Below are positions 21,464 through 34,546 of a stretch of 64,000 nucleotides of DNA, one piece after another. The notes beneath the pieces were generated by a model that was given only the letters and a program-made list of their open reading frames with translations, did not search any database and was not told the origin of the DNA. The number at the start of each line of letters is the position of its first letter. Positions within the stretch are counted from its first letter, which is position 1. Source of the stretch: a candidate division FCPU426 bacterium (GTDB lineage: Bacteria; Oederibacteriota; Muellerivitia; Muellerivitales; Muellerivitaceae); assembly GCA_027452205.1 (NCBI GenBank), contig DAIDGV010000012.1, positions 1-64,000 on the forward strand, given 5' to 3'. Position numbers and translations under genes: made by a program.

Positions 21464-22141
21464 TTAAGACTGATTGTTTTTGATCGATGCCAAAATTCTA
21501 TCCCCTTCGGCATCATCTATCACCCTAAAAATGGGGTCTTCCAGGCTGGCGTAATAAACATCCGTATTTTGAATATCGAACCAGAGACCGTGTAACATCA
21601 ATTTTTCACCCAGAATGGCCTGGGACACTTGGGGATAGCTCTTCAAATGCTCCATTTGCAAGAGAACGTTCTGTTTCGAGACCGCGTTCACTTCTTCGGG
21701 CAGGGCCAGGTCGTTTTTCTTCGACCTTACCCTTTCGAGGGCTTCTTCCCCATGTCGCAACCAGGACCGTAGATAGGGCATCGGGAGCTTTTCCTTGCCC
21801 AGGCATAGAGCCTTCATGGCCCCGCAATCCGAGTGGCCGCAAATGATGATGTGGCGGACCTTCAATTGGGTCAGGGCGAATTCCATGGCTGCCACCTCAC
21901 TCTCGTCGGTCAAGACGCCGTCCCGGGAGGTGGCTGGCGTCACCAGGTTACCCACGTTACGCACCACGAAAAGATCCCCAGGTTCGGTGGAAGCGAACAC
22001 GTTCACCGCCACACGACTGTCCGAACAAGCGATGAAAAGCACGTCGGGGCTTTGTCCCAGGGCCAGTTGGGCGAAGGTGCCCTTCACTTGGTCCCGGCGG
22101 TTCTTATGGAAGTCCATCATGCCTTGGATCAGCTTGATCAT
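21464..22141 (-). CDS. Beta-class carbonic anhydrase
   Basis: 225 residues. It converts CO2 and water to bicarbonate with a zinc ion held by Cys39 (ACSDSR), His103 and Cys106 (GHSDCGAM); Asp41 and Arg43 form the usual catalytic pair. FVVRNVGNLV is also diagnostic of the family. No signal peptide, so it is cytoplasmic. It sits 31 bases upstream of the outer-membrane barrel gene on the same strand; the hairpin after ptsI lies upstream and makes a separate transcript likely. Confidence 0.93.
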   Translation of the reverse strand: MIKLIQGMMDFHKNRRDQVKGTFAQLALGQSPDVLFIACSDSRVAVNVFASTEPGDLFVVRNVGNLVTPATSRDGVLTDESEVAAMEFALTQLKVRHIIICGHSDCGAMKALCLGKEKLPMPYLRSWLRHGEEALERVRSKKNDLALPEEVNAVSKQNVLLQMEHLKSYPQVSQAILGEKLMLHGLWFDIQNTDVYYASLEDPIFRVIDDAEGDRILASIKNNQS

Positions 22142-22183: not shown

Positions 22184-22222
22184 TAAAAAAAGAATTTTCA
22201 GCATCCTGTTAGAACAGGATCG
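22184..22222 (-). terminator. Hairpin overlapping the ptsI stop codon
   Basis: ATCCTGT and ACAGGAT at 22203-22220 form a perfect 7-bp stem whose loop holds part of the ptsI TAA codon; a seven-T tract follows some 13 bases downstream on the minus strand. It is a plausible but loosely spaced terminator for the PTS transcript. Confidence 0.5.
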
Positions 22223-23960
22223 ACCGAAGCTCGGCCGGCACACCGTCGCGGATGATATCGAAGACCTCGTCGGATGTTCTGACCTTCAAGGCCGCTGCCG
22301 CGATCTCCTTGGCCTTGGCCAGGGGTATCATGCGGATGACCTTTTTCACCTCAGGAATGACCGAGATGCTGGTCGAGAGCTCGTCCAATCCCATCCCCAG
22401 GAGCAGCGGAACATATTGCGGGTCACCCGCCATCTCGCCGCACATCCCCACCCACTTGCCGGCCTTATGGGCCGCGTCGATGGTCATTTGGATCAGCCGC
22501 AGGATCGCCGGGTTCAGGGGATCATAAAGATAAGCCACCGACTCGTTGACCCGGTCGACCGCCATCGAATACTGGATGAGGTCGTTGGTGCCGATGGAAA
22601 GGAAGTCCACTTCCTGGATGAGGATATCCGACATCACCGCCGCGGAAGGGATCTCGATCATCACGCCTACTTCCACGCCCGCCCGGAACACTTGCCCCTC
22701 TTTTTTGAGCTCTTCCACGCATTCTTGAAGCAAAGCCTTGGACTCCATCACCTCGCTCAGGGTGGAAATCATCGGGAACATGATCTTGATAGGGCCATGG
22801 GCCGCGGCCCGCAAAATAGCCCGTAGTTGGATCTTGAACATATCGGGCTGCTTCAAGCACAGACGGATGGCGCGCAGGCCTAAGAAGGGATTCCGTTCCT
22901 CGGCCATATTCATGTGGGACAGGAACTTGTCCCCGCCCAGGTCCAGGGTGCGGATGATGGCGGGATTGATCCCTGTCTTGGTGGCCAGTTCCTTATAGGA
23001 ATTGAATTGTTCTTCCTCGCTCGGGCTTTCGACCCGGTTCATATAGAGGAATTCGGTACGGTAAAGGCCGATACCCTCGGCGCCGTGGCGTTCCATTTCG
23101 TCCAATTCCTGGGGGATCTCGATATTGGCCGCCAGGGTCACCCGGTGCCCGTCCGGCGTGACCGCGGGCAGGGTCTTGAAGGCTTCCAGGCTTTTTTGGA
23201 AAGCGGCGTAATTCTCTTTGAGGCGGCGGTATTGGTCCACCAATTGGGCCGAGGGATTGACCAGCACCAGGCCTTTATTGCCGTCCACGATCAAAAGGTC
23301 CCCATCCCGGATCTCAGCCGTTGCGTTCTGAAGGCCCACCACCGCCGGCAGGCCCAGGGACCGGGCCACGATGGCCACATGGGACGTCTTGCCGCCCACA
23401 TCGGTACAGAAAGCCTTAATGACGTCCGTCGAGAGCGTGACCGTATCCGAGGGGGACAGGTCATTGGCGATGAGGATGACTTCCCGGCCCAGCTTTTTAA
23501 GATCTTCCTTTTCGCCCTTCCCCATCAGGTTTCGCAGCACCCGGTTGCCCACATCCTGGATGTCCCCGCCCCTTTCGCGGAAATACTCGTCGTCCAGGGA
23601 GGCCATGATGGTCTTGAACTTACCCAGGGCCTCGTGCAGCACATATTCAGCGTTCAACAATTGGGCCGAGATGGTCTGGGCCACCTCCTCGGTGAACAGG
23701 GGGTCGTCGAGCAACACTTGGTGGGCGCCAAAAATGCTGGCGTGGTCGTCGCCGATCTTTTGCTTGGCCCGGCCTTGCAGTTCCACGATCTGACGGCGGG
23801 TCTTGACCAGCGCCTCTTCATAGCGCTTGAGTTCAGCCGGTACTTCCTCGGGGCGCAGCTCTCGGCGCAAGGACGTCATGCCTTGGGACCTATAAAGATA
23901 AGCGGGGCCTATCTCGATCCCGCCCGAAGCGGGGACCCCGTGGAACATTTTCTCGGACAA
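22209..23960 (-). CDS. ptsI: PTS enzyme I (phosphoenolpyruvate-protein phosphotransferase)
   Basis: 583 residues, usual length. EI takes phosphate from PEP and gives it to HPr. The phosphorylated His is 194 in GGKTSHVAIVAR; GLYRTEFLYM and RTLDLGGDKF belong to the PEP-binding barrel and CGEMAGDP carries the active-site Cys. Translation seems to start at TTG 23960 after GGAG. It is the last gene of the minus-strand PTS run, 27 bases after HPr. All catalytic residues are present, so the phosphorelay should be active. Confidence 0.95.
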   Translation of the reverse strand: MSEKMFHGVPASGGIEIGPAYLYRSQGMTSLRRELRPEEVPAELKRYEEALVKTRRQIVELQGRAKQKIGDDHASIFGAHQVLLDDPLFTEEVAQTISAQLLNAEYVLHEALGKFKTIMASLDDEYFRERGGDIQDVGNRVLRNLMGKGEKEDLKKLGREVILIANDLSPSDTVTLSTDVIKAFCTDVGGKTSHVAIVARSLGLPAVVGLQNATAEIRDGDLLIVDGNKGLVLVNPSAQLVDQYRRLKENYAAFQKSLEAFKTLPAVTPDGHRVTLAANIEIPQELDEMERHGAEGIGLYRTEFLYMNRVESPSEEEQFNSYKELATKTGINPAIIRTLDLGGDKFLSHMNMAEERNPFLGLRAIRLCLKQPDMFKIQLRAILRAAAHGPIKIMFPMISTLSEVMESKALLQECVEELKKEGQVFRAGVEVGVMIEIPSAAVMSDILIQEVDFLSIGTNDLIQYSMAVDRVNESVAYLYDPLNPAILRLIQMTIDAAHKAGKWVGMCGEMAGDPQYVPLLLGMGLDELSTSISVIPEVKKVIRMIPLAKAKEIAAAALKVRTSDEVFDIIRDGVPAELRSILF

Positions 23961-23987: not shown

Positions 23988-24260
23988 CTATTCCTTTTCG
24001 CCGAACCTGTTCTCGAACAACTGTTTCAGAGCGGCCACGGCTTCCTTGGCATCCGCTCCATCACACTCGAACTCCAGTTCGGTGCCCTTGGCCGCCGCCA
24101 GTGTCATCAGCCCCATCAGGCTTTTGGCGTTCACGTTCTGTACGCCGTGATGGATCATGACTTGGCTCTTGAACTTATTGGCCACCTTCACCAGCTCCGC
24201 GGCGGCCCTCAAGTGGAGGCCCAGCTTGTTGACGATCAAGAGTTTTTCGGTGACTTTCAT
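23988..24260 (-). CDS. ptsH: Phosphocarrier protein HPr
   Basis: 90 residues. His16 in NKLGLHLRAA is the site phosphorylated by enzyme I; most HPr proteins read GLHARPA here, so both Ala17 and Pro are replaced. Ser47 in NAKSLMGLM matches the regulatory serine targeted by HPr kinase, and that kinase gene lies at 30.3-31.3 kb. HPr should feed phosphate to the IIA proteins of this cluster and report carbon status. The gene follows the IID gene by only 9 bases. Confidence 0.93.
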   Translation of the reverse strand: MKVTEKLLIVNKLGLHLRAAAELVKVANKFKSQVMIHHGVQNVNAKSLMGLMTLAAAKGTELEFECDGADAKEAVAALKQLFENRFGEKE

Positions 24261-24269
24261 AGACTCCCC

Positions 24270-25157
24270 TTATTTTGTTTTCAACAACGCCGAAGCCGCG
24301 ATCGGATCGGGTTTAAGCGACCCCAAATGCCCCATCTGGGGCGGCGCGCTCAGATCCGGCCAGAAGGCCAGCATCAAGGCGAACAACACCACCGCGTAGA
24401 ACAATTGGCTCGGGCTTATCTTGCGGTGCAACGCGAACGTGAAAAGTCCCACGATCGCCGTGAAGAACGTCAACTTCAACACGAAAAGTCCCATCTCTTT
24501 TTCCAGCTCCGACAGGTTGACGAAAACGATCAGAACGCCCAAAAGCACGATCGAGGCCAGTTTCAAGCCCCGAATGGCCTCTTGGAATCCGTATTGGCGC
24601 AGCGACAGCACCACCTGATCACTTTTACGATATCCCTGGATGAAGCCGGTCAATCGCACGCCCACATGGGCCACGTTGTAAACGATGAGGAAGAGCAGGG
24701 GCACCACCCAATATTGGCCCTTTACCTGGAAAGCGCTGGAAAGCACCAGCGTCACCGCCAAAAGCCCGCAGTAAGGACGCACGGTGGCCCAAAAAAGGTT
24801 ATCCCCCATCGCCGCGATGGGGCCCATCATGCCCACCTTCAAGGCGCTGATCTCTTCTTCCTTCTGCTTTTGCTTAGGTTTTGGCAACTGCTGCTTTTCC
24901 TCTTCCATACGCAACACCGCGCCCAGGACGAAGGAAGCCATATAGGGATGGGTATTGAAATATTCCAAGTGCCGGGACAAGGCCTGGGACCTTTCTTCCT
25001 GGGTCGGATGCAACTTTTTGATGGCCGGAAGCAGCACAAAGGCCACGCCATAACTGAGGTATCTCTCGAAGTTCCAGACCGTTTGAAGGAAGAAGGAACG
25101 GACGAAAGCGAACACTAGGTCCTTGCGGTTCAAGGAAACGGGTTTATCTTCAGGCAT
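24270..25157 (-). CDS. PTS mannose/sorbose-family IID component
   Basis: 295 residues. The N-terminal half (SYGVAFVLLPAIKKL, then MGPIAAMGDNLFWATVRP) matches the IID subunit that with IIC forms the membrane channel of mannose-family PTS transporters; several hydrophobic helices occupy the second half. GGGAGAAAA precedes the ATG, which overlaps the IIC gene by 8 bases. IID subunits bring the IIAB phosphoryl domains to the channel. The sugar carried cannot be told from the sequence. Confidence 0.9.
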   Translation of the reverse strand: MPEDKPVSLNRKDLVFAFVRSFFLQTVWNFERYLSYGVAFVLLPAIKKLHPTQEERSQALSRHLEYFNTHPYMASFVLGAVLRMEEEKQQLPKPKQKQKEEEISALKVGMMGPIAAMGDNLFWATVRPYCGLLAVTLVLSSAFQVKGQYWVVPLLFLIVYNVAHVGVRLTGFIQGYRKSDQVVLSLRQYGFQEAIRGLKLASIVLLGVLIVFVNLSELEKEMGLFVLKLTFFTAIVGLFTFALHRKISPSQLFYAVVLFALMLAFWPDLSAPPQMGHLGSLKPDPIAASALLKTK

Positions 25158-25932
25158 TTTTCTCCCCCTTTCCGATGAAGAACAAGGCCAGGGCGAATCC
25201 GGCGCAAAGGGCCAACGAGACCAAATAGACGTCTTGTAAGTGATAGAAGATGGCCAGGCCCATGATCGTGACGATCGAAAGGATCAGGTAAATGATGGTT
25301 TTCTTTTCCACCAAAAGATCGATGACCGCCGAGCAGCCCAAGGCCAAGAGCAGCCAATGGGCGTAATAAAGCCCCTCAATGACACGGCCATTCAGGATGG
25401 TAGTGAATAAAAGGAAAAGACCGGAAGTGAAGTGCACCATGGTCAAACCGATGGCTGCCACCAGGAACCCCTTTACGAAAAGCTCCAATGTGACCATCCA
25501 ATTGATCCAGGCAAAGGTCTTGAAGTGGCCGCCCATGGCCATGCGCTGGGCCAAGTGGACCCAACGGACGTTGAATTTGCTCACGAAGATATCGACCTCC
25601 GTACTCAAGGCCGCCAAGGGGATCGTCACCCCTAGGGCAAAGGTCATCACCGCTTCCGGGGGATAATTGCCACCTAAAAGCTCGCAGGTAAAGGCGACCG
25701 ACACGCCCGAAAGGACCATGAGGTCCATGGGCAAGTGAGCGCCCACGGGCAGGTCGCCTATCCAGATCAGTTCGATCAAAGCACCCATTTCCAGGCCCAC
25801 TTCGGGATGGCCCAGGAGCCAGCCCACCAAGGGCCCCACTACGATGGGACGGCAGACCATGAACTGGCCCACCGCGGCCACATCCAGGCTGAGGAAACCC
25901 AATAAGATGGAAATACCGAACCAATGCGGCAT
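25150..25932 (-). CDS. PTS mannose/sorbose-family IIC component
   Basis: 260 residues, full length, with about seven hydrophobic helices. FMVCRPIVVGPLVGWLLG and GALIELIWIGDLPVGAHLP are typical of the substrate-binding IIC subunit of mannose-family transporters. The ATG at 25932 overlaps the stop codon of the GH57 gene by one base (TGATG), and its own 3' end overlaps IID, so IIC depends on translation of the glucanotransferase upstream. Confidence 0.9.
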   Translation of the reverse strand: MPHWFGISILLGFLSLDVAAVGQFMVCRPIVVGPLVGWLLGHPEVGLEMGALIELIWIGDLPVGAHLPMDLMVLSGVSVAFTCELLGGNYPPEAVMTFALGVTIPLAALSTEVDIFVSKFNVRWVHLAQRMAMGGHFKTFAWINWMVTLELFVKGFLVAAIGLTMVHFTSGLFLLFTTILNGRVIEGLYYAHWLLLALGCSAVIDLLVEKKTIIYLILSIVTIMGLAIFYHLQDVYLVSLALCAGFALALFFIGKGEKNA

Positions 25933-28097
25933 CAAGACCCCTTTTTCTCTTTTAAGCGCAACGACAACGGCGCCTCAAAAGCGCCTTCCGGCGGCAACAC
26001 CACTTGCCAGCCCCAGAGCAAACAGGACCCTTGATAGACCCGTTCAAAACCACCCTCGGATTGGGAAATGGTCTCGACCGGATAACGCCAGAAGTAAGCC
26101 GGCTTATCGGTTTGAAAGACCGCTTCCAATTGTAACCAACCGTCCCGCATGCCCGCTTCGGTCACGTTCAGTTCGGCGCCCGCGCTATTCAGGCGTGTTT
26201 CCTTTACGTTCCGGTCCTTGATGAAGTAATTTCGGTCCGAAGCGTCGCCCGCCAGCATCGTCAGGTTCCACTCGCTCATGAAGAGGAACCGCAATTCTTT
26301 GGAGCTGAGATTCTTGAGTTGATAAAGGACCTTCAGGTCGAAGTCATTCGGGTCCAGGGACAAGCGTTTGGTCAACTGGACCGGCGCTCCATCCACCAAC
26401 CCCGGATGGTTCAGGATCATCTGCAAGGGCTGGCCCTTCCGCTTGGGTTCTTCCAATTTGTGTTGGAAGACCGCTTGATGGAAATCGCCCAGTTCCTTGT
26501 ATTGACCATGCAACAGATTTTCCACGGTCGTTTCCAACGGCAGGAAACGTTCGACCATGCTGGCGCGGCTTTCGGGGTCATAGAACAATTTATTCTCGAG
26601 GCCCGGTTCTTTGGTCCGCACCATGTCATGGATGCTGGCCACGCCCGTTCCACCGGCCTTCCCTTCCCGAAGGGCCTTGAGTTTTTCATGATAGGGTTCT
26701 TTGCGGCGGGTCAGCGTGTCCGTCAGGTTAATGGGATGTTTCAGGTAATCGAGCTCGATCAGACTGCCGCCCCGGGCCGGGGCTATGATCGCGTGATAAG
26801 CGCCACCGTCAATGACGATCTCTTTGCGCCCATCCTTATCGAAATCCATCTCGGTCACTTCCAGGTCGCCGTCCGGGTTCAGGATCAAATCCGCCAGCTT
26901 TTCCGCCTCGATGAATTGACGGTACATGGCGAAACGCAAGTGGTTCAAATAAAGGCCGCCGAAGACCCCGTGCCAATAGGGGCAGTTGCACTCGCCCCGG
27001 TAAAGGGCTTGGGTGGCCTGTTCGAGAACGGCTTTTTGTTTGGGGGTCGATCTCTTTTCCAGCTTGAGCCGGGCCTTTTCGACCTTGTTCGAGACCCACA
27101 AAAGCTTCTTGTGGAGATGGTTGCTCTCGGAGTATTTCGCGAAGAAATTGCGCCAGAACCCGCCCTTGAGATAGCGGTCATAACGGTGCATCTCGCCCTT
27201 GGCCTGCAGTTCGTGGCGGATGTTGTCGTAATCCTGCGCGGCGGCGGTCGGCAGGGACCACTCGCCCATCTCGGTATAGGAACCCGTCGGCAGGTTCACG
27301 ATGCCCTGGGAAGGGTATATCTTTTTGTATTCGGCGAAAGTGGTGGTATTGATCCAGTCCGCGTTCTGTTCCAAGGCTGTAAAGAACCGTTCCAGCCAAC
27401 CTTCCTCATAGACCCACTTGTAAGTGTCCGGCCAGCCGCCGAACTTCTCACCGTCATCCATCAGCACCACGCAGCGGTCTCCCGCCTCGGTAGCGACAAA
27501 ACGCAGGTATTCAATGGTCTCTTCCACCGCTTGGAAAGGGACCAAGTAGCGCATTTTTTCGGAGATGGGGAATACCGCGCAGGTCTCGCCCTGTTCTTCC
27601 ATCAAGTAATAACCAAAAGTTTGTTCTTCGGAAAAACCTGCGGCCTTCAGGTGAGCGTCGTCGATGACCACATATTCGACCCCGGCATCGGCCAAGGCTT
27701 TGGTCAAATGAGGTTCCCAGACCCGTTCCGCTAGCCACATGCCCTTGGCTTCCACCTTGAACTTCTTCTTGAGATAGTCGGTCAACATGCGGATCTGGCC
27801 GATCTTGTCCCGGTCCGGCAGCACCGCCAGGATCGCCTCGTACATGGCGCCGGTGAAGAATTCGATCTGTCCTTTGCGGGACATCTCGCCCATACGTTTG
27901 AAATAATCCGGGCGGTTCTCTTCCAGCCACTCCAAGAGGGGACCAGTCACATGGAAGGTGCATTTCACTTTGGGATGTTTTTCCAGGATGCGCAGGAAAG
28001 GCTCGTAGGACTTTTCATACAAAGCCTCGAAGACCTGGCCGAAATTCCCGACCGGCTGGTGATTGTGCACACCGAAAATGAAATTGATCTTTTTCAC
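25932..28097 (-). CDS. GH57 family 4-alpha-glucanotransferase/alpha-amylase
   Basis: 721 residues, the length of two-domain GH57 enzymes. FGVHNHQPVGN opens the (beta/alpha)7 barrel; WLAERVWEP holds the nucleophile (about Glu124) and VLMDDGEKFGGWPD the acid/base Asp (about 214). The C-terminal 300 residues form the DUF1925/DUF1926 beta-sandwiches. These cytoplasmic enzymes cut or rearrange alpha-1,4-glucans such as glycogen or maltodextrin. There is no signal peptide. It lies between IIB (7 bases upstream) and IIC (1-base overlap), an unusual place that ties glucan processing to PTS expression. Confidence 0.9.
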   Translation of the reverse strand: MKKINFIFGVHNHQPVGNFGQVFEALYEKSYEPFLRILEKHPKVKCTFHVTGPLLEWLEENRPDYFKRMGEMSRKGQIEFFTGAMYEAILAVLPDRDKIGQIRMLTDYLKKKFKVEAKGMWLAERVWEPHLTKALADAGVEYVVIDDAHLKAAGFSEEQTFGYYLMEEQGETCAVFPISEKMRYLVPFQAVEETIEYLRFVATEAGDRCVVLMDDGEKFGGWPDTYKWVYEEGWLERFFTALEQNADWINTTTFAEYKKIYPSQGIVNLPTGSYTEMGEWSLPTAAAQDYDNIRHELQAKGEMHRYDRYLKGGFWRNFFAKYSESNHLHKKLLWVSNKVEKARLKLEKRSTPKQKAVLEQATQALYRGECNCPYWHGVFGGLYLNHLRFAMYRQFIEAEKLADLILNPDGDLEVTEMDFDKDGRKEIVIDGGAYHAIIAPARGGSLIELDYLKHPINLTDTLTRRKEPYHEKLKALREGKAGGTGVASIHDMVRTKEPGLENKLFYDPESRASMVERFLPLETTVENLLHGQYKELGDFHQAVFQHKLEEPKRKGQPLQMILNHPGLVDGAPVQLTKRLSLDPNDFDLKVLYQLKNLSSKELRFLFMSEWNLTMLAGDASDRNYFIKDRNVKETRLNSAGAELNVTEAGMRDGWLQLEAVFQTDKPAYFWRYPVETISQSEGGFERVYQGSCLLWGWQVVLPPEGAFEAPLSLRLKEKKGS

Positions 28098-28104
28098 GGC
28101 CGCC

Positions 28105-28587
28105 TCAGTTCTTGATCTCGGGAAGCACCTTGTCCAGGGACTCTTTGAGGTCGCCCGGCACCGCCCTGGATTCCAGTTCCACTCCGCGTTGGCGAAGCGC
28201 CTTGAAAGCTTTCATGTCGTCCGAATTCACGCAGATCGTCTTGCTCATCTGTGTCTTGCCGTCGCAAAAATGCATCCCGCCCACGTTCACCGCCATTACC
28301 ATACCTCCCGCCGCGGCGAAGGTCTCCACATCCATGGGGTTCGAGAAAAGGACCAGCGTGCGGTCCTGGGAAGCGTCCTTGGCCGCCTCGACGGCCTCGG
28401 CCACGGTGTAGAAATCGACCTTGAGTCCGGCGGGCACGGCCATTTCCATCAAAGTACGGCGCATATTGTTCTTGGCGATCTCGTCATTGACCACCACCAA
28501 GCGCTCGATGCTCAGGGCCTTGACCCAGCCCACTACCACTTGGCCGTGGATCAATCGGTCGTCGATGCGGATAAGTTGAATGTTCAT
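28105..28587 (-). CDS. PTS mannose/sorbose-family IIB component
   Basis: 160 residues. RIDDRLIHGQVVVGW contains His14, the residue that receives phosphate from IIA in mannose-type IIB proteins; the 160-residue length is standard for a free-standing IIB. It is cytoplasmic and works with the IIC-IID channel. It follows IIA by 19 bases. Confidence 0.92.
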   Translation of the reverse strand: MNIQLIRIDDRLIHGQVVVGWVKALSIERLVVVNDEIAKNNMRRTLMEMAVPAGLKVDFYTVAEAVEAAKDASQDRTLVLFSNPMDVETFAAAGGMVMAVNVGGMHFCDGKTQMSKTICVNSDDMKAFKALRQRGVELESRAVPGDLKESLDKVLPEIKN

Positions 28588-28606
28588 GTTGCCTTCCCTA
28601 TTCGGA

Positions 28607-29008
28607 CTACTTACGAAGCAACTCCACCGATGTCAACACGCCTTCACGGGCCACCTTTTGGGTCTCCAAAGCCAGCGCTTCCAGGTCCTTCTCGTCCTGG
28701 CTGGTAGCCACCTTGATCAGCATGGGCAGGTTGACCCCGGTCACGATCTGCAGTTTGTGGGTCTGGGCGGTCAAGAGCGACACGTTAAAGGGCGTGCCCC
28801 CGACCATATCCACCAGCACCAAGGCGCCGTGGTTCTTGGGATCGACCTTCTTCAGGGTGGCCTCTAATTTTTCTTTGAAGGTTTCCATGGATTCGGAAGG
28901 ATGTAAGGCCAGGGCTTGAACGCCCTCGTTTTCCCCCAAGATCATCCGCAATGTCCCGACCAGTTCCTTGCCGAAATCACCATGTGTCGCCACGACGATG
29001 CCGAACAT
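28607..29008 (-). CDS. PTS mannose-family IIA component
   Basis: 133 residues. GIVVATHGDFGKEL carries His9, the phosphorylation site accepting from HPr; LVDMVGGTPFN is the second hallmark of the ManX-type fold. The ATG at 29008 is preceded by GGAGG; a TTG codon 12 bases earlier overlaps that site. It opens the IIA-IIB-GH57-IIC-IID-HPr-EI gene run. Confidence 0.92.
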   Translation of the reverse strand: MFGIVVATHGDFGKELVGTLRMILGENEGVQALALHPSESMETFKEKLEATLKKVDPKNHGALVLVDMVGGTPFNVSLLTAQTHKLQIVTGVNLPMLIKVATSQDEKDLEALALETQKVAREGVLTSVELLRK

Positions 29009-29061: not shown

Positions 29062-30330
29062 TCAGATGACCAACAGGCGGATGATGGCCCGCCCCAGCTT
29101 ATCCGAGCTATGCCGGACATAATTCTCGTGATTGAGCAGGTTCGCCCGCAGCAGCTTGACGCCCAATTCAGAGACCGCCTTTTCGTCCAACACCACCGGT
29201 TCCTGGTGGTACATTTCGTAACGGTGCAGCAAGTTGGAAGAGACCTTTTCCTTGTTGGCGATCACGTAATGGATAAAGTTCGGGCCGGTGTGTTTGAGGA
29301 TCGCGTTCACGTGGTCCGACACCGTGAACCCGTCGGTCTCGCCGGGCTGGGTCATGACGTTGCATACATAGATCTTCACTGCCCGGGACAGGGCGATGGT
29401 CTCGGCCACCTGGGGGATGAGCAGGTTGGGAATAACGCTGGTATAGAGGCTGCCCGGCCCCATCACGATAGCGTCCGCTTCCAGGATGGCCTTGAGCACT
29501 TCCCGGTTGGGCTTGATGCCCTTTTCTTTCAGGGACACATGGTCGATCGGCGCTTTGGACTTGGAAATATTGGATTCGCCCACCACCACCTTGCCGTTCT
29601 TGAGCTTGGCTTGCAGGGTCATGTTCTCGAAGGTGACCGGCATGACGGTCCCCCGGGTGGAAAGCACCCGGCTGGATTCTTCCACTGCCCGGGCAAAATC
29701 CCCGGTGATCTCTTTCATGACGGTGATGAAAAGGTTGCCGAAGCTGTGGCCGTTCAAGTCCCCATGACCCTTGAAGCGGTATTGGAAAAGGTCGTTGAGC
29801 AGGGTCTCCTGGTCCGACAAGGCCACGATACAGTTACGGATATCGCCCGGGGGCGGCGTGCCGAAGTCATTGCGCAAACGGCCCGAGGACCCGCCGTCGT
29901 CGGCCACGGTCACCACCGCGGTCAAGTTGCTGGTGTATTGTTTCAAGCTGTGCAGCACATTGGGCATGCCCGTCCCGCCGCCGACGACCACGATACGCGG
30001 CCCGCGTTTCAGGCGGTTGCGCTGGTAAACCACATCCAGGAATTCTTTCTCCCGGGCAGGCGCGTAGACCGTCAGGACGGAGAAAAGGAGCCGGCGAATA
30101 CCCAGGATAAAACCCCAGACCGCCAGCACCATGAACAGGAAGTCGATGAATTTAAGCCGTTTGAGATGTTCTTCGATCTCCACGATGATCTCGGGACGGA
30201 CGTGGATACCCTGCACATGGGCGCTCATGAGCCCGGAGAAGCCCACGATGAACACCACGATGGCCAGACCGATCAGGAAGAACCAACGCTTGAGCCGCAT
30301 ACCGGGATAAAGCCACCGCCAGCTTTGCAT
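29062..30330 (-). CDS. YvcK/CofD-like gluconeogenesis factor with N-terminal membrane anchor
   Basis: 422 residues. From about residue 115 the sequence matches YvcK proteins (VVGGGTGMPNVLHSLK, TVADDGGSSGRLR, GPGSLYTSVIPNLL), which share the CofD fold, bind UDP-sugars and influence central carbon flow and cell-wall supply. The first 110 residues are not part of the soluble family: two hydrophobic helices at about 15-37 and 62-82 surround a charged loop. The ATG overlaps the hprK stop (TAATG). In many bacteria this slot between hprK and the PTS genes is occupied by rapZ; here YvcK replaces it. Confidence 0.85.
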   Translation of the reverse strand: MQSWRWLYPGMRLKRWFFLIGLAIVVFIVGFSGLMSAHVQGIHVRPEIIVEIEEHLKRLKFIDFLFMVLAVWGFILGIRRLLFSVLTVYAPAREKEFLDVVYQRNRLKRGPRIVVVGGGTGMPNVLHSLKQYTSNLTAVVTVADDGGSSGRLRNDFGTPPPGDIRNCIVALSDQETLLNDLFQYRFKGHGDLNGHSFGNLFITVMKEITGDFARAVEESSRVLSTRGTVMPVTFENMTLQAKLKNGKVVVGESNISKSKAPIDHVSLKEKGIKPNREVLKAILEADAIVMGPGSLYTSVIPNLLIPQVAETIALSRAVKIYVCNVMTQPGETDGFTVSDHVNAILKHTGPNFIHYVIANKEKVSSNLLHRYEMYHQEPVVLDEKAVSELGVKLLRANLLNHENYVRHSSDKLGRAIIRLLVI

Positions 30331-31304
30331 TAGGAATGGCCTTTCGCGCGGTGGGCCGGGTGCCGACTGGATTCCTCGGCCATGATGCGTCCCACCCGGT
30401 CCGCGAATTCCTGGGCGGTGAAATAACCCATCTTCATGGACCGGTGGTTCATGGCCGCCACCTCGATGATCACCGCCAGGTTCCGGCCCGGACGGACCGG
30501 GATGACGAAAGCGGGCAATTCCACGTCGAAGATCTTGTAAGTGGCGGGCGCCAGCCCCAGCCGGTCATATTCTTTCTTGTCGTTCCACTCTTCCAGCCGC
30601 ACCACCAGTTCGATGCGTTTTTTGTCGCGGATGGCGCCGACGCCGAACAGGTTCTCGATGTTGATGATCCCCAGGCCGCGGATCTCCATGTGGTGCTTGA
30701 TGATCTCGGATCTCGACCCCATCACGATCCGGTTGGCCAGGCGCTTCATGTAGACCAGGTCGTCCGCCACCAAGCGGTGTCCCCGCTCGACCAGGTCCAG
30801 CGCGCACTCGCTCTTGCCGATGCCTGACTGACCCAGGATGAGGATCCCCACGCCGTAAATATCCATGAGCGTGCCATGCTGGGTGCTTTCCGGCGCGAAC
30901 TCTTCTTCCAGGTAAACGGAGATCTCGGAGATGAACTTGGTCGTCGGGGTGGGCGTGATGAAAACGGGCACTTTGTATTTCTTAGCGGCGGCCAAAAGGT
31001 CCGCCGGGGTCTTCATCTTGTGGGTCACTACCACGCAAGGAAGGTTCTTGTTGGAAAAGATGATCTGGAGCACTTTGTGGCGTTGGGCGGGCTTGAGGGT
31101 CTCCAGGTAATGGACCTCGGTCTTGCCCACGATCTGCAACCGGTGAAAGGGGAACCATTTCAGGTAACCGGTCAGTCCCATGCCCATACGGTTGATATCG
31201 ACGCCCGTGATGAAACGGTCCTTCATCTCCATTTCCAAAAGCGGGGTCAGGTGAAGACGTTCCTTGGCCTGCTGAAAGAGCGACTCCACGGAAATTTTTT
31301 TCAT
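30330..31304 (-). CDS. hprK: HPr kinase/phosphorylase
   Basis: 324 residues. It phosphorylates the regulatory Ser of HPr with ATP or pyrophosphate and reverses the reaction with phosphate. GQSGIGKS at 158-165 is the P-loop, HGTLMDIYGVG precedes it, and MEIRGLGIINI at about 206-216 is the family signature. The N-terminal domain (DRFITGVDINRMGMGLTGY) is standard. A GAGGAG site lies before the ATG. With HPr Ser47 intact, this implies Firmicutes-like or Geobacter-like control of PTS activity in a diderm. Confidence 0.94.
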   Translation of the reverse strand: MKKISVESLFQQAKERLHLTPLLEMEMKDRFITGVDINRMGMGLTGYLKWFPFHRLQIVGKTEVHYLETLKPAQRHKVLQIIFSNKNLPCVVVTHKMKTPADLLAAAKKYKVPVFITPTPTTKFISEISVYLEEEFAPESTQHGTLMDIYGVGILILGQSGIGKSECALDLVERGHRLVADDLVYMKRLANRIVMGSRSEIIKHHMEIRGLGIINIENLFGVGAIRDKKRIELVVRLEEWNDKKEYDRLGLAPATYKIFDVELPAFVIPVRPGRNLAVIIEVAAMNHRSMKMGYFTAQEFADRVGRIMAEESSRHPAHRAKGHS

Positions 31305-31335: not shown

Positions 31336-31800
31336 TTAGTGCTTGAGCTTCTCTTCTTCTTGGATGATCTTGATCACTTCTTCGGGGCTTTGGGCTGCCA
31401 GGAGCGACTTGCGGAAGTACTTGTCCTTGAGCAGGCTGGAGATGCGGGCCAAGGCCTTCAGGTGGGCTCCCGCCGCGCCTTCCGGGGCGACCAAGAGGAA
31501 GAAGATGTTCACCGGTTCGCCGTCCAGGGAGTCGAAAGTGACCCCGTCGACGGAAACACCAAAGGCCGCCGCCAGGTCCGACACCGTGTCCGACTTGCCG
31601 TGGGGGATCGCGATCCCCTGGCCGATGCCCGTGGAACCCAATTCTTCCCGTTCCATCAGGGTTTGGATCATCTTCTTTTTGTCCTTCACTTTGCCCGATT
31701 TGAAAAGCACGTCCACCAATTCCTTGACGGCGTCTTTCTTGTTCTTGGACTCCATGGACAACTTGATGCAATCAACGGATAAAAAATCAAGGATCTGCAT
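31336..31800 (-). CDS. ptsN: PTS IIA-like nitrogen-regulatory protein (PtsN type)
   Basis: 154 residues of the fructose/mannitol IIA fold. GIAIPHGKSD contains the His that takes phosphate from HPr or NPr; the N-terminus ILDFLSVDCIKLSM matches PtsN (IIA-Ntr) and the protein has no IIB or IIC fusion, consistent with a regulator instead of a transporter. It lies between hpf and hprK, the same neighbourhood as ptsN beside rpoN in proteobacteria. GGGAGGAACT precedes the ATG. Confidence 0.9.
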   Translation of the reverse strand: MQILDFLSVDCIKLSMESKNKKDAVKELVDVLFKSGKVKDKKKMIQTLMEREELGSTGIGQGIAIPHGKSDTVSDLAAAFGVSVDGVTFDSLDGEPVNIFFLLVAPEGAAGAHLKALARISSLLKDKYFRKSLLAAQSPEEVIKIIQEEEKLKH

Positions 31801-31835: not shown

Positions 31836-32369
31836 TCAGTACTCCGGCTCGATGAGCCCGATATGGTTGTCTTTGCGTTTGTAAACAACGCTCGTGCAGT
31901 CGTCCTCGGCGTTATAGAACACCAGGAACTCGTCCTTGGAGGAAGTCAGCTGCATGGCGGCCTCTTCCACGGTCATGGGCTTCACGGCGTGCTTTTTGCT
32001 TTTGATCACCTTGAACTCGTCCGACTCGTCCCGGTGCGGGATCAGGCTATGGCTGACCGAGGCCGCCCGGCGGTTCTCGGCGCGGTGGCCGGAGAGCTTT
32101 TCCTTCTTCTTTTTGGCCTGGCCTTCCAAACGGGCCAAGGCCGCATCGATGGATTGATACATGTCCCGGGAGATGGCTTTAGCGCTCAATTTCAGCCCTT
32201 TGGCCACCAGGGTCACTTCGCAGGTATGGACGCTTTTCTCGAAATTCAGGATGACATGGGCCTCGTTGATCTTGCCCAAATAGCGCTCCACCCGCTCGAT
32301 CTTCTCTTCCACATGGTCTTTAAGGCCTTCGGTGAGCTTCTCGTGGCGGCTGGTGATATGGACTTTCAT
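31836..32369 (-). CDS. hpf: Ribosome hibernation-promoting factor, long form
   Basis: 177 residues. The N-terminal 95 form the ribosome-binding domain (MKVHITSRHEKLTEGLKDHVEEK); after a charged linker the last 55 residues (HAVKPMTVEEAAMQL, then FYNAEDDCTSVVYKRKDNHIGLIEP) form the dimerisation domain found only in long HPF. Long HPF alone can pair 70S ribosomes into 100S dimers in starved cells. AGGAAAAAACC precedes the ATG. Its place between rpoN and ptsN is conserved in many diderms. Confidence 0.93.
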   Translation of the reverse strand: MKVHITSRHEKLTEGLKDHVEEKIERVERYLGKINEAHVILNFEKSVHTCEVTLVAKGLKLSAKAISRDMYQSIDAALARLEGQAKKKKEKLSGHRAENRRAASVSHSLIPHRDESDEFKVIKSKKHAVKPMTVEEAAMQLTSSKDEFLVFYNAEDDCTSVVYKRKDNHIGLIEPEY

Positions 32370-32733: not shown

Positions 32734-34245
32734 TCACAGTTTTCGGCGCTGGGAAGCGGAGGGAATCTTCAACTCTTCCCGGTACTTCGCGATCGTGCGC
32801 CGGGCGATGTTGAGGCCTTTGTCGGTCAGGGCCTGCATGATCTTTTGGTCCGAAAGGGGTTTTTGAGGGGGTTCCTGGTCGATCATTTCCTTGATGGTCT
32901 CCTTGACCGATGAGGAGGAAACATCCATGCCGTCTGAGGATTCCAACCCGCTGGTGAAGAAATACTTCAGTTCGAACAGGCCCCGGGGGGTCTGAACATA
33001 CTTATGGGTCGTGACCCGGCTGATAGTGGACTCGTGCATGCCGATCATGTCCGCCACTTGCTTGAGTGTCAGGGGCTTCAAGGCACTCACGCCCTGTTCG
33101 AGGAACTCCTGCTGGATCCGGAAAATGGCTTCGGTCACCCGAAAGATGGTCTTGCGGCGCTGCTCGATGTTCTTGATGAGCCATAGGGCGGCTTGGATCT
33201 TGGCGTCGAGGAATTTCTTAGTCTCTTTGGCGTCGACGGCCTTTTTGTCCTTCAGCATCCGCCGGTAGTAAGGCGATATCCTCAACCGGGGCACGGGCTC
33301 GTCGTTGAGCACCACCACATACTCCCCCTCGATCTTCCGCACGCTCACGTCGGGCACCACATACTTGGTATCCACCGTCTCGAAAGAGCGGCCCGGCTTG
33401 GGTTCCAGGTTGGCGATAAAAGCCAGCACCTCCCGCAATTGATCCTCGTCGCAACCGAGGCCTTTGAGGATGACCGGATAGCGGCGCTTTTCCATGTCCT
33501 CGAAATGGTGATAGACCACCTGATAGGCCCGCTGAGCCACCGGGCCATTGCAATGTTCCAACTGAAGCAAGAGGCATTCCCGAAGGTCCCGCGCCCCCAC
33601 CCCGATCGGGTCCAACCCTTGGATGAGCCCCAGGACCCTTTCGGCCTCGGCCAAGGTCACCCCCTGCAATTTGGCGATGTCTTCCAGTTTTCCGCTCAGA
33701 TAGCCGTTGTCATCCAGGTTACCGATGATCTCCCGGCCTAGGGCGACCTCTTGCTCGTTCTTGGCCACCATGTGGAATTGCCATTCCAAATGTTCCGCTA
33801 GGCTGGGCGCCCGGGTGATGGAAGCCTCGACGAAATCGCGCTTTTCTTGCTCGTCGTTGGAACTTTGGCTGCCGCCCCATTCACCGCCGCCCTCCCCGTA
33901 CTCTTCCGCCTCTTGGTAATGGTCCCAGGTCTCTTCTTTGAACTTGTCCCCGTCCTGGATGCGTTCGACTAGGTCAGTGTCATGGCGCTCGCGGGCTTTT
34001 TCAAAGGCGGGATCCGGCGCGGCCTCTTCGGTCTCAGCGTCGGTATTGTTCGCTTCGGGGGAATTTTTATCGGCGGCGGTGGTCTCCTCATCCTCTTCCA
34101 GGACGGGATTCTCGACCATTTCCTTTTCCACCCAATCCTTCAGTTCCATCGTAGACATTTGAAGGATCTTCATGGCCTGCTGCAGCATGGGCGTCATGAT
34201 CATGCGCTGCTGCATCTTTTGGTTCATGCCGAATTGCTGACGCAT
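32734..34245 (-). CDS. rpoN: RNA polymerase sigma-54 factor
   Basis: 503 residues. The Gln/Met-rich region I (QQRMIMTPMLQQAMKILQMS) contacts activators; an acidic region II (about 55-130) follows; region III has HESTISRVTTHKYVQTPRG for core and -12 DNA contacts, and ARRTIAKYREEL near the C-terminus is the RpoN box for the -24 element. Sigma-54 promoters need an AAA+ activator; none is encoded in this window. The ATG at 34245 has GAAGGG upstream; a GTG 24 bases earlier is less likely. The gene heads the rpoN-hpf-ptsN-hprK set. Confidence 0.95.
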   Translation of the reverse strand: MRQQFGMNQKMQQRMIMTPMLQQAMKILQMSTMELKDWVEKEMVENPVLEEDEETTAADKNSPEANNTDAETEEAAPDPAFEKARERHDTDLVERIQDGDKFKEETWDHYQEAEEYGEGGGEWGGSQSSNDEQEKRDFVEASITRAPSLAEHLEWQFHMVAKNEQEVALGREIIGNLDDNGYLSGKLEDIAKLQGVTLAEAERVLGLIQGLDPIGVGARDLRECLLLQLEHCNGPVAQRAYQVVYHHFEDMEKRRYPVILKGLGCDEDQLREVLAFIANLEPKPGRSFETVDTKYVVPDVSVRKIEGEYVVVLNDEPVPRLRISPYYRRMLKDKKAVDAKETKKFLDAKIQAALWLIKNIEQRRKTIFRVTEAIFRIQQEFLEQGVSALKPLTLKQVADMIGMHESTISRVTTHKYVQTPRGLFELKYFFTSGLESSDGMDVSSSSVKETIKEMIDQEPPQKPLSDQKIMQALTDKGLNIARRTIAKYREELKIPSASQRRKL

Positions 34246-34546
34246 AGTACCCTTCAGGGTGGGATCCACGAACTAGGCCTATTATAACCCTTTCAGCAAG
34301 ATTCAAGCCAAAGCACTGTCATTTCTAAGGAACAATAGTTTCCCAAAATGATCGGGCCACAGATGCAGGGGATTCAGGGGATAAGGACAAGACTTCAAAG
34401 CGACCGCCGATCAAACCGGATAATCGCCGATACATCTGAATTACTTTATTTCCCATCGGCGTTCATCTGCGGCTAAATAGGTTTTTTTATTTTTTATCCC
34501 CTGCATCTGTGGCAAATCGCCGTTCGATTTGCTTTGGCCTAGCGGT
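34246..34546. other. Intergenic region upstream of rpoN
   Basis: About 300 bases between the divergent-looking ends of rpoN (start) and the amidohydrolase gene (stop). It contains the composite palindrome at 34360-34514 and, next to rpoN, the probable rpoN promoter region at 34250-34355. Confidence 0.5.
34360..34514. repeat. Palindromic element, type A, with a type C element inside
   Basis: The outer arms are CCACAGATGCAGGGGATTC-AGGGGATAA at the left and TTATCCCCTGCATCTGTGG at the right. The interior, 34404-34472, is a separate CCGCCGAT...ATCGGCG palindrome of the type C family. Type A copies occur at 39915-40074 and 42674-42774. Confidence 0.75.

Follow-up and report, generated by a model that had tools for sequence, protein, structure and literature searches.

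A putative GH57 4-alpha-glucanotransferase encoded within a mannose-family PTS operon in bacteria of several phyla

Gene content and organization of the locus

The window analysed here, a stretch of 64,000 nucleotides from a candidate division FCPU426 bacterium, contains a run of minus-strand genes (34269-21464) in the order rpoN-hpf-ptsN-hprK-yvcK-IIA-IIB-GH57-IIC-IID-HPr-EI-carbonic anhydrase, with the gene identities in the operon assigned through Pfam/NCBIfam profile matches. The open reading frame of rpoN (sigma-54, 32734-34269) heads a conserved neighbourhood and is found in this position in most loci of the window's phylum; it is followed by those of hpf (hibernation promoting factor, 31836-32369) and ptsN (IIA-Ntr, 31336-31800), both also covered by the comparison of neighbours within the phylum. 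The next genes are hprK, coding for HPr kinase/phosphorylase (30330-31304; TIGR00679, 374 bits; Walker A motif GQSGIGKSE), and yvcK, the product of which is CofD-like and UDP-GlcNAc-binding (29062-30330; TIGR01826, 385 bits). All four domains of the mannose (man) family of PTS permeases are then encoded, namely IIA (28607-29008; PF03610, with the active-site THG motif), IIB (28105-28587; PF03830, with the RIDDRLIH motif), IIC (25150-25932; PF03609, matching the E. coli ManY structures 7dyr/6k1h) and IID (24270-25157; PF03613 over residues 9-211, with a diverged C-terminal third, and matching man-PTS IID structures with E-values down to 2e-38). The GH57 gene (25932-28097), which has a GTG start and codes for 721 aa, lies between IIB and IIC. 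The permease genes are followed by those of HPr (23988-24260; PF00381), with its His15 and Ser46 motifs (NKLGLHLRAAA and AKSLMGLMT), and Enzyme I (EI, 22209-23960; TIGR01417, 657 bits), with the active site GGKTSHVAIVAR. The THG and RIDDRLIH motifs supply the phosphorylatable His of IIA and IIB. As the motifs of IIA, IIB, HPr, EI and HprK are all intact, the phosphorelay looks functional. The last gene (21464-22141; PF00484) codes for a beta-type carbonic anhydrase, assigned at the family level only; such a gene was observed 3' of EI in the window and in one other locus (L040), and not in the other families.

The window coordinates confirm the location of GH57 between IIB and IIC given in a preliminary description of this DNA, with 7 bases after IIB and an overlap of 1 base with IIC (TGATG); IIC and IID overlap by 8 bases. 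The gene order was thus as described, but the operon is bigger than proposed, with hpf-ptsN-hprK-yvcK upstream and HPr-EI downstream. Gaps from hpf to EI range from -8 to +53 bases (-1 to +53 in the upstream hpf-ptsN-hprK-yvcK part), and the 364 bases between rpoN and hpf are the sole long gap in the run. This gap includes a sigma-70-like site 5' of hpf (32473-32446), although the count of such sites is at chance level. Motif scans of the operon gave no sigma-54, sigma-70 or terminator-like sites above chance, and an Rfam scan of it returned no riboswitch or other element.

In a genome-wide search, the man-type IIC at this locus was the only one in the genome, and no PTS_EIIC domain was found there, which indicates that the locus represents the core PTS. 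The presence of ptsN in the rpoN-hpf neighbourhood is a feature of PTS-Ntr systems. An N-terminal GAF domain of the EI-Ntr type was not found, the EI (583 aa) carrying only three PEP-utilizer domains, and the best model for this protein is the general PTS_I family. Neither of the traits looked for as marks of a substrate-specific PTS operon (own regulator, sugar-catabolic enzymes) was found in the locus.

The GH57 protein consists of a catalytic domain (PF03065) and the middle and C-terminal AmyA-gluTrfs domains (PF09094 and PF09095), and matches the 4-alpha-glucanotransferase of T. litoralis (1k1w) with an E-value of 6e-152 over 692 residues. The catalytic residues E124 and D215 (nucleophile Glu and acid Asp) are invariant in all 93 homologues compared. 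Amylase-type GH57 members have the same domain architecture. The three domains, the match to 1k1w and both catalytic residues bear out the earlier gene call, and the protein is, judging from its sequence, a T. litoralis-type 4-alpha-glucanotransferase with that putative activity. While the T. litoralis enzyme (1k1w/1k1x/1k1y) shares these domains and catalytic residues, it has no PTS context, unlike the one encoded in the window. The catalytic domain begins at residue 7, leaving no room for a signal peptide.

Distribution of the linkage

The window's phylum is FCPU426/Firestonebacteria-like and includes candidate division FCPU426 (L072 = G002) and Firestonebacteria (L109 = G021). The enzyme was detected over the 1e-60 threshold in 19 of the 45 genomes searched and as a fragment in one more (G005), and in all 20 of these it is encoded at the PTS locus, with no copy elsewhere. 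EII genes are present in 18 of the 20 loci and absent from 2. Five families (f1, f2, f4, f10 and f12) have the order YvcK-IIA-IIB-GH57-IIC-IID-HPr-EI. The EII-free loci of f5 read YvcK-GH57-HPr-EI (L035) and YvcK-two ORFs-GH57-NHL protein-HPr-EI (L034). In f3, f6, f7, f8, f9, f11 and f13 the operon lacks GH57, and IIB adjoins IIC wherever both were seen; about half of the phylum has the same PTS operon, mostly together with glycogen synthase, without the enzyme. Some variation was observed within these families. In one f7 locus (L054, genome G013) no GG.TSH active-site motif could be recognised in EI, although the other PTS genes are in place, and the relay there is possibly degenerate or divergent. 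In G027, two copies of GH57-IIC-IID in identical order are found on contigs C84 and C74, reflecting either duplication or strain mixture. HPr-domain matches number two to eight per genome in f1, the family of the window (G000-G007), mostly three or more, and one or two in most other families. No plasmid-borne copies of GH57 were found.

For a survey across phyla, named species genomes were scanned with the GH57 alignment and the best 80 loci were considered. The IIA-IIB-GH57-IIC-IID order was found in Elusimicrobiota, in Krumholzibacteriota and in two further metagenome-assembled genomes. The Krumholzibacteriota loci (L133 and L151) read HprK-IIA-IIB-GH57-IIC-IID-HPr-EI, and those of the two further genomes (L137 and L142) PtsN-HprK-RapZ-IIA-IIB-GH57-IIC-IID-HPr. 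Two Elusimicrobia loci (L121 and L135) are also linked in this set, while UBP4 (L080) has IIA-IIB-GH57. In Hydrogenedentota (L099 and L129, and where readable L091, L116 and L119) the arrangement is HPF-HprK-GH57-HPr-EI, with EII absent; in L089 of the same group, HprK is located three genes upstream of GH57 and the contig ends after the latter. Three Zixibacteria-like loci are linked with an MlaD-family gene interposed, directly 5' of GH57 and 3' of HprK or IIB (L115:4795-5688, L127:974-1867 and L128:5108-6001). In L133, a phosphoglucose isomerase gene was seen to follow the PTS-GH57 run. Many phyla carry the same type of GH57 apart from any PTS gene, according to the same scan.

A search of Elusimicrobiota found the enzyme in 43 of 80 genomes, and each of the 40 loci read is a PTS operon, in most cases IIA-IIB-GH57-IIC-IID-HPr-EI, the genes lying a few bases apart. 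The tight spacing noted in the preliminary description applies to the window and is common in Elusimicrobiota, but gaps reach about 170 bases elsewhere in the window's phylum. An insertion in a single genome is ruled out by the 20 genomes of the phylum with GH57 at the PTS locus, besides the other phyla, and chance adjacency by the same 20 of 20 together with the 40 of 40 in Elusimicrobiota.

The linkage is also present in genomes lacking a permease. Neither man-type IIC nor PTS_EIIC was detected genome-wide in six Hydrogenedentota-type, two f5 and two Zixibacteria-like genomes, or in Elusimicrobia G051, and in these GH57 adjoins HprK and/or HPr-EI. In 8 of the 40 Elusimicrobiota loci, GH57-HPr-EI is found without IIC/IID in place, G051 being the one among them covered by the genome-wide search. 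The genome of L121, which is devoid of IIC, has DUF4912-branching enzyme-IIA-4-alpha-glucanotransferase-HPr-EI.

Glycogen genes and evolutionary history

One or two GH57 branching enzymes are encoded in the PTS run of ten further loci (all eight of L182-L189, L193 and L219), with DUF4912 in several. Their identity is based on PF03065 and BE_C where checked, the latter domain being present in all four Pfam-checked proteins. As branching enzymes are alpha-glucan storage genes, what the loci have in common is a phosphorelay with an alpha-glucan enzyme rather than a permease with an enzyme. In six Elusimicrobiota loci (L182, L184, L185, L188, L189 and L219) the branching enzyme gene is located just 5' of that of the 4-alpha-glucanotransferase, and L182, L185 and L189 have a second one farther upstream, near DUF4912. 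Outside the PTS locus, contig C22 of G000, the genome of the window, carries a cluster (L047:2318-5784) of genes for a DUF4912-like protein, a GH57 branching enzyme and, following these two, a ROK kinase.

Of 50 genomes, both GH57-bearing and GH57-free, 45 gave a glycogen synthase (GT5) match above the cut-off; being near-universal, this synthase is uninformative as a predictor of GH57. All tested genomes of the GH57-bearing families f1, f2, f4 and f12 have a classical glycogen phosphorylase (over 800 bits); the GH57-free families have no classical one, only another phosphorylase type of about 860 aa scoring about 60-110 bits. Families f5 and f10 have GH57 and no classical phosphorylase. Almost all genomes tested have ROK sugar kinases, which gives no support to the idea that the PTS is required for glucose phosphorylation through a lack of kinases.

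In GH57 trees, the linked proteins are found in several places, with 6-7 changes by parsimony, and a constraint placing them in one clade was rejected (p-AU 0.0012). A single-clade ancestral origin is thereby ruled out by a test which is blind to the difference between repeated gain and loss, and the linkage was gained or kept repeatedly. The EI sequences of f1, f2, f4 and f12 group with those of Elusimicrobiota (support 86), which is compatible with an old linkage common to these families and Elusimicrobiota. The EI of f10 groups with those of the GH57-free families.

Possible roles of the linked enzyme and relation to known systems

The occurrence of GH57 beside HPr-EI in the absence of a permease speaks against the import of a glucan-derived sugar and argues that the general PTS is coupled to the turnover of internal alpha-glucan (glycogen). 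The earlier suggestion that the system moves such a sugar is for this reason disfavoured, also considering the lack of room for a signal peptide, while its alternative, a putative PTS control of glycogen turnover, is the best fit to the comparative evidence; the notion that PTS and glycogen turnover are linked is upheld. With moderate confidence, we read the locus as the core PTS operon, and the only one, in these bacteria, and GH57 as the cytosolic 4-alpha-glucanotransferase of an intracellular glycogen/maltodextrin pool, made together with the core PTS in such a way that turnover of the pool would track the cell's PEP/HPr state. This coupling could be achieved through shared transcription and translation alone or, more speculatively and by analogy, through binding of HPr, man-type IIA or IIB to the alpha-glucan enzyme. 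Where IIC/IID exist, glucose probably enters as glucose-6-phosphate, and its influx would set the phosphorylation state.

A stronger form of this reading, which we consider tentatively and as rather doubtful, is that HPr, IIA or IIB directly controls GH57, or a complex of GH57 and branching enzyme, via phosphorylation-dependent binding, the general PTS in Elusimicrobiota and allied phyla being primarily a switch of glycogen turnover and sugar transport having been lost in some lineages. A comparison of GH57 sequences gave no convincing residue signature to set linked apart from unlinked ones, so the enzyme shows no sign of a dedicated site for PTS docking or phosphorylation. The GH57-free relatives, with their PTS operon and mostly glycogen synthase, indicate that the link is not obligatory.

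4-alpha-glucanotransferases exchange free glucose, and the man-type PTS could import glucose, or recapture that set free within the cell by the enzyme, and phosphorylate it, both acting on one glucose pool. That GH57 is in many genomes flanked directly by IIB and IIC, at short distances, would suit such a pairing, as would the interpretation of the man-type PTS of Endomicrobiaceae (Elusimicrobiota) as a system for glucose uptake capable of replacing glucokinase (PMC11257099). However, GH57 lies beside HPr-EI in genomes without a permease, and the near-universal ROK kinases, one of which is encoded next to the branching enzyme in G000, mean that the PTS is not needed for released glucose; we find this explanation unlikely. 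It is similarly improbable that GH57 merely sits among stationary-phase and energy genes for the sake of a shared promoter and is functionally unconnected to the PTS proteins. The starvation-related hpf and rpoN among the neighbours, the intact PTS operon of GH57-free relatives and the missing residue signature are in line with such an arrangement, but the linkage recurs in at least six phyla with a single clade rejected, and in the window's phylum and Elusimicrobiota GH57 is always found by IIB/IIC or HPr-EI and not elsewhere in the cluster.

Uptake of a starch- or glycogen-derived sugar for GH57, as in levanase or pneumococcal bgaC/GAG PTS operons, is very improbable, as this is the sole PTS operon and encodes EI, HPr, HprK and PtsN, which are general proteins, the locus contains neither a regulator of its own nor genes for a secreted amylase or a 6-phospho-glycosidase, and GH57 has no signal peptide and is kept where the permease is absent. 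PTS import also yields 6-phosphosugars, which to our knowledge 4-alpha-glucanotransferases do not use. What favours it is that glycosidases are known from man-type PTS operons, S. pneumoniae having bgaC with SP0061-64 (SP0060-66) and SP0322 with SP0321-25 (PMC3302838). These loci resemble the present one in having a glycoside hydrolase-family gene within a man-type PTS operon, and the earlier view of mannose PTS operons as normally confined to PTS genes plus a regulator was in consequence too strong. They are, however, substrate-specific operons with catabolic genes, while here the operon is that of core EI/HPr and the enzyme persists without the permease.

Other known systems share parts of this arrangement. 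In the rpoN-hpf-ptsN-rapZ-ptsO operon of the proteobacterial PTS-Ntr (PMC13104625), rpoN, hpf and ptsN head the cluster in the same order, but the run continues here with hprK, yvcK and the genes of a complete man-type EII, of HPr and of an ordinary EI devoid of a GAF domain. Brucella has a permease-less PTS of regulatory type with hprK, man-type IIA, NPr and EI-Ntr, of which IIA-Man binds SucA (PMC2937029); a man-type IIA, an HPr-like protein, EI and HprK thus also occur there without permease and with a metabolic enzyme as partner. That partner is 2-oxoglutarate dehydrogenase and is encoded outside the operon, and most members of the present group keep a full permease. The regulation of glycogen phosphorylase by HPr in E. 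coli (reviewed in PMC11046441 and cited in PMC5320558) likewise ties a general PTS phosphocarrier to glycogen turnover; that system has GlgP as its target and unlinked genes, whereas the putative partner here is a 4-alpha-glucanotransferase, joined in some cases by a branching enzyme, encoded in the PTS operon.

No description of the locus was found in the open-access literature on GH57 with PTS or HPr, or on Elusimicrobia with PTS and glycogen. Glycosidases in man-type PTS operons, the rpoN-hpf-ptsN head and PTS control of glycogen in E. coli were already known; a core PTS operon that incorporates an alpha-glucan enzyme, conserved across several phyla and kept without the permease, is new as far as the searchable literature goes. 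Most work on how the PTS controls glycogen concerns enteric bacteria, the partners there being unlinked. A linkage spanning several phyla and outliving the transporter would offer a handle on the coupling of carbon uptake and storage in poorly cultured phyla, and it provides a hypothesis for the function of HPr/EI/HprK sets without permease, which is a long-standing puzzle. As Elusimicrobiota include cultured members, the coupling of PTS and glycogen should be testable there.
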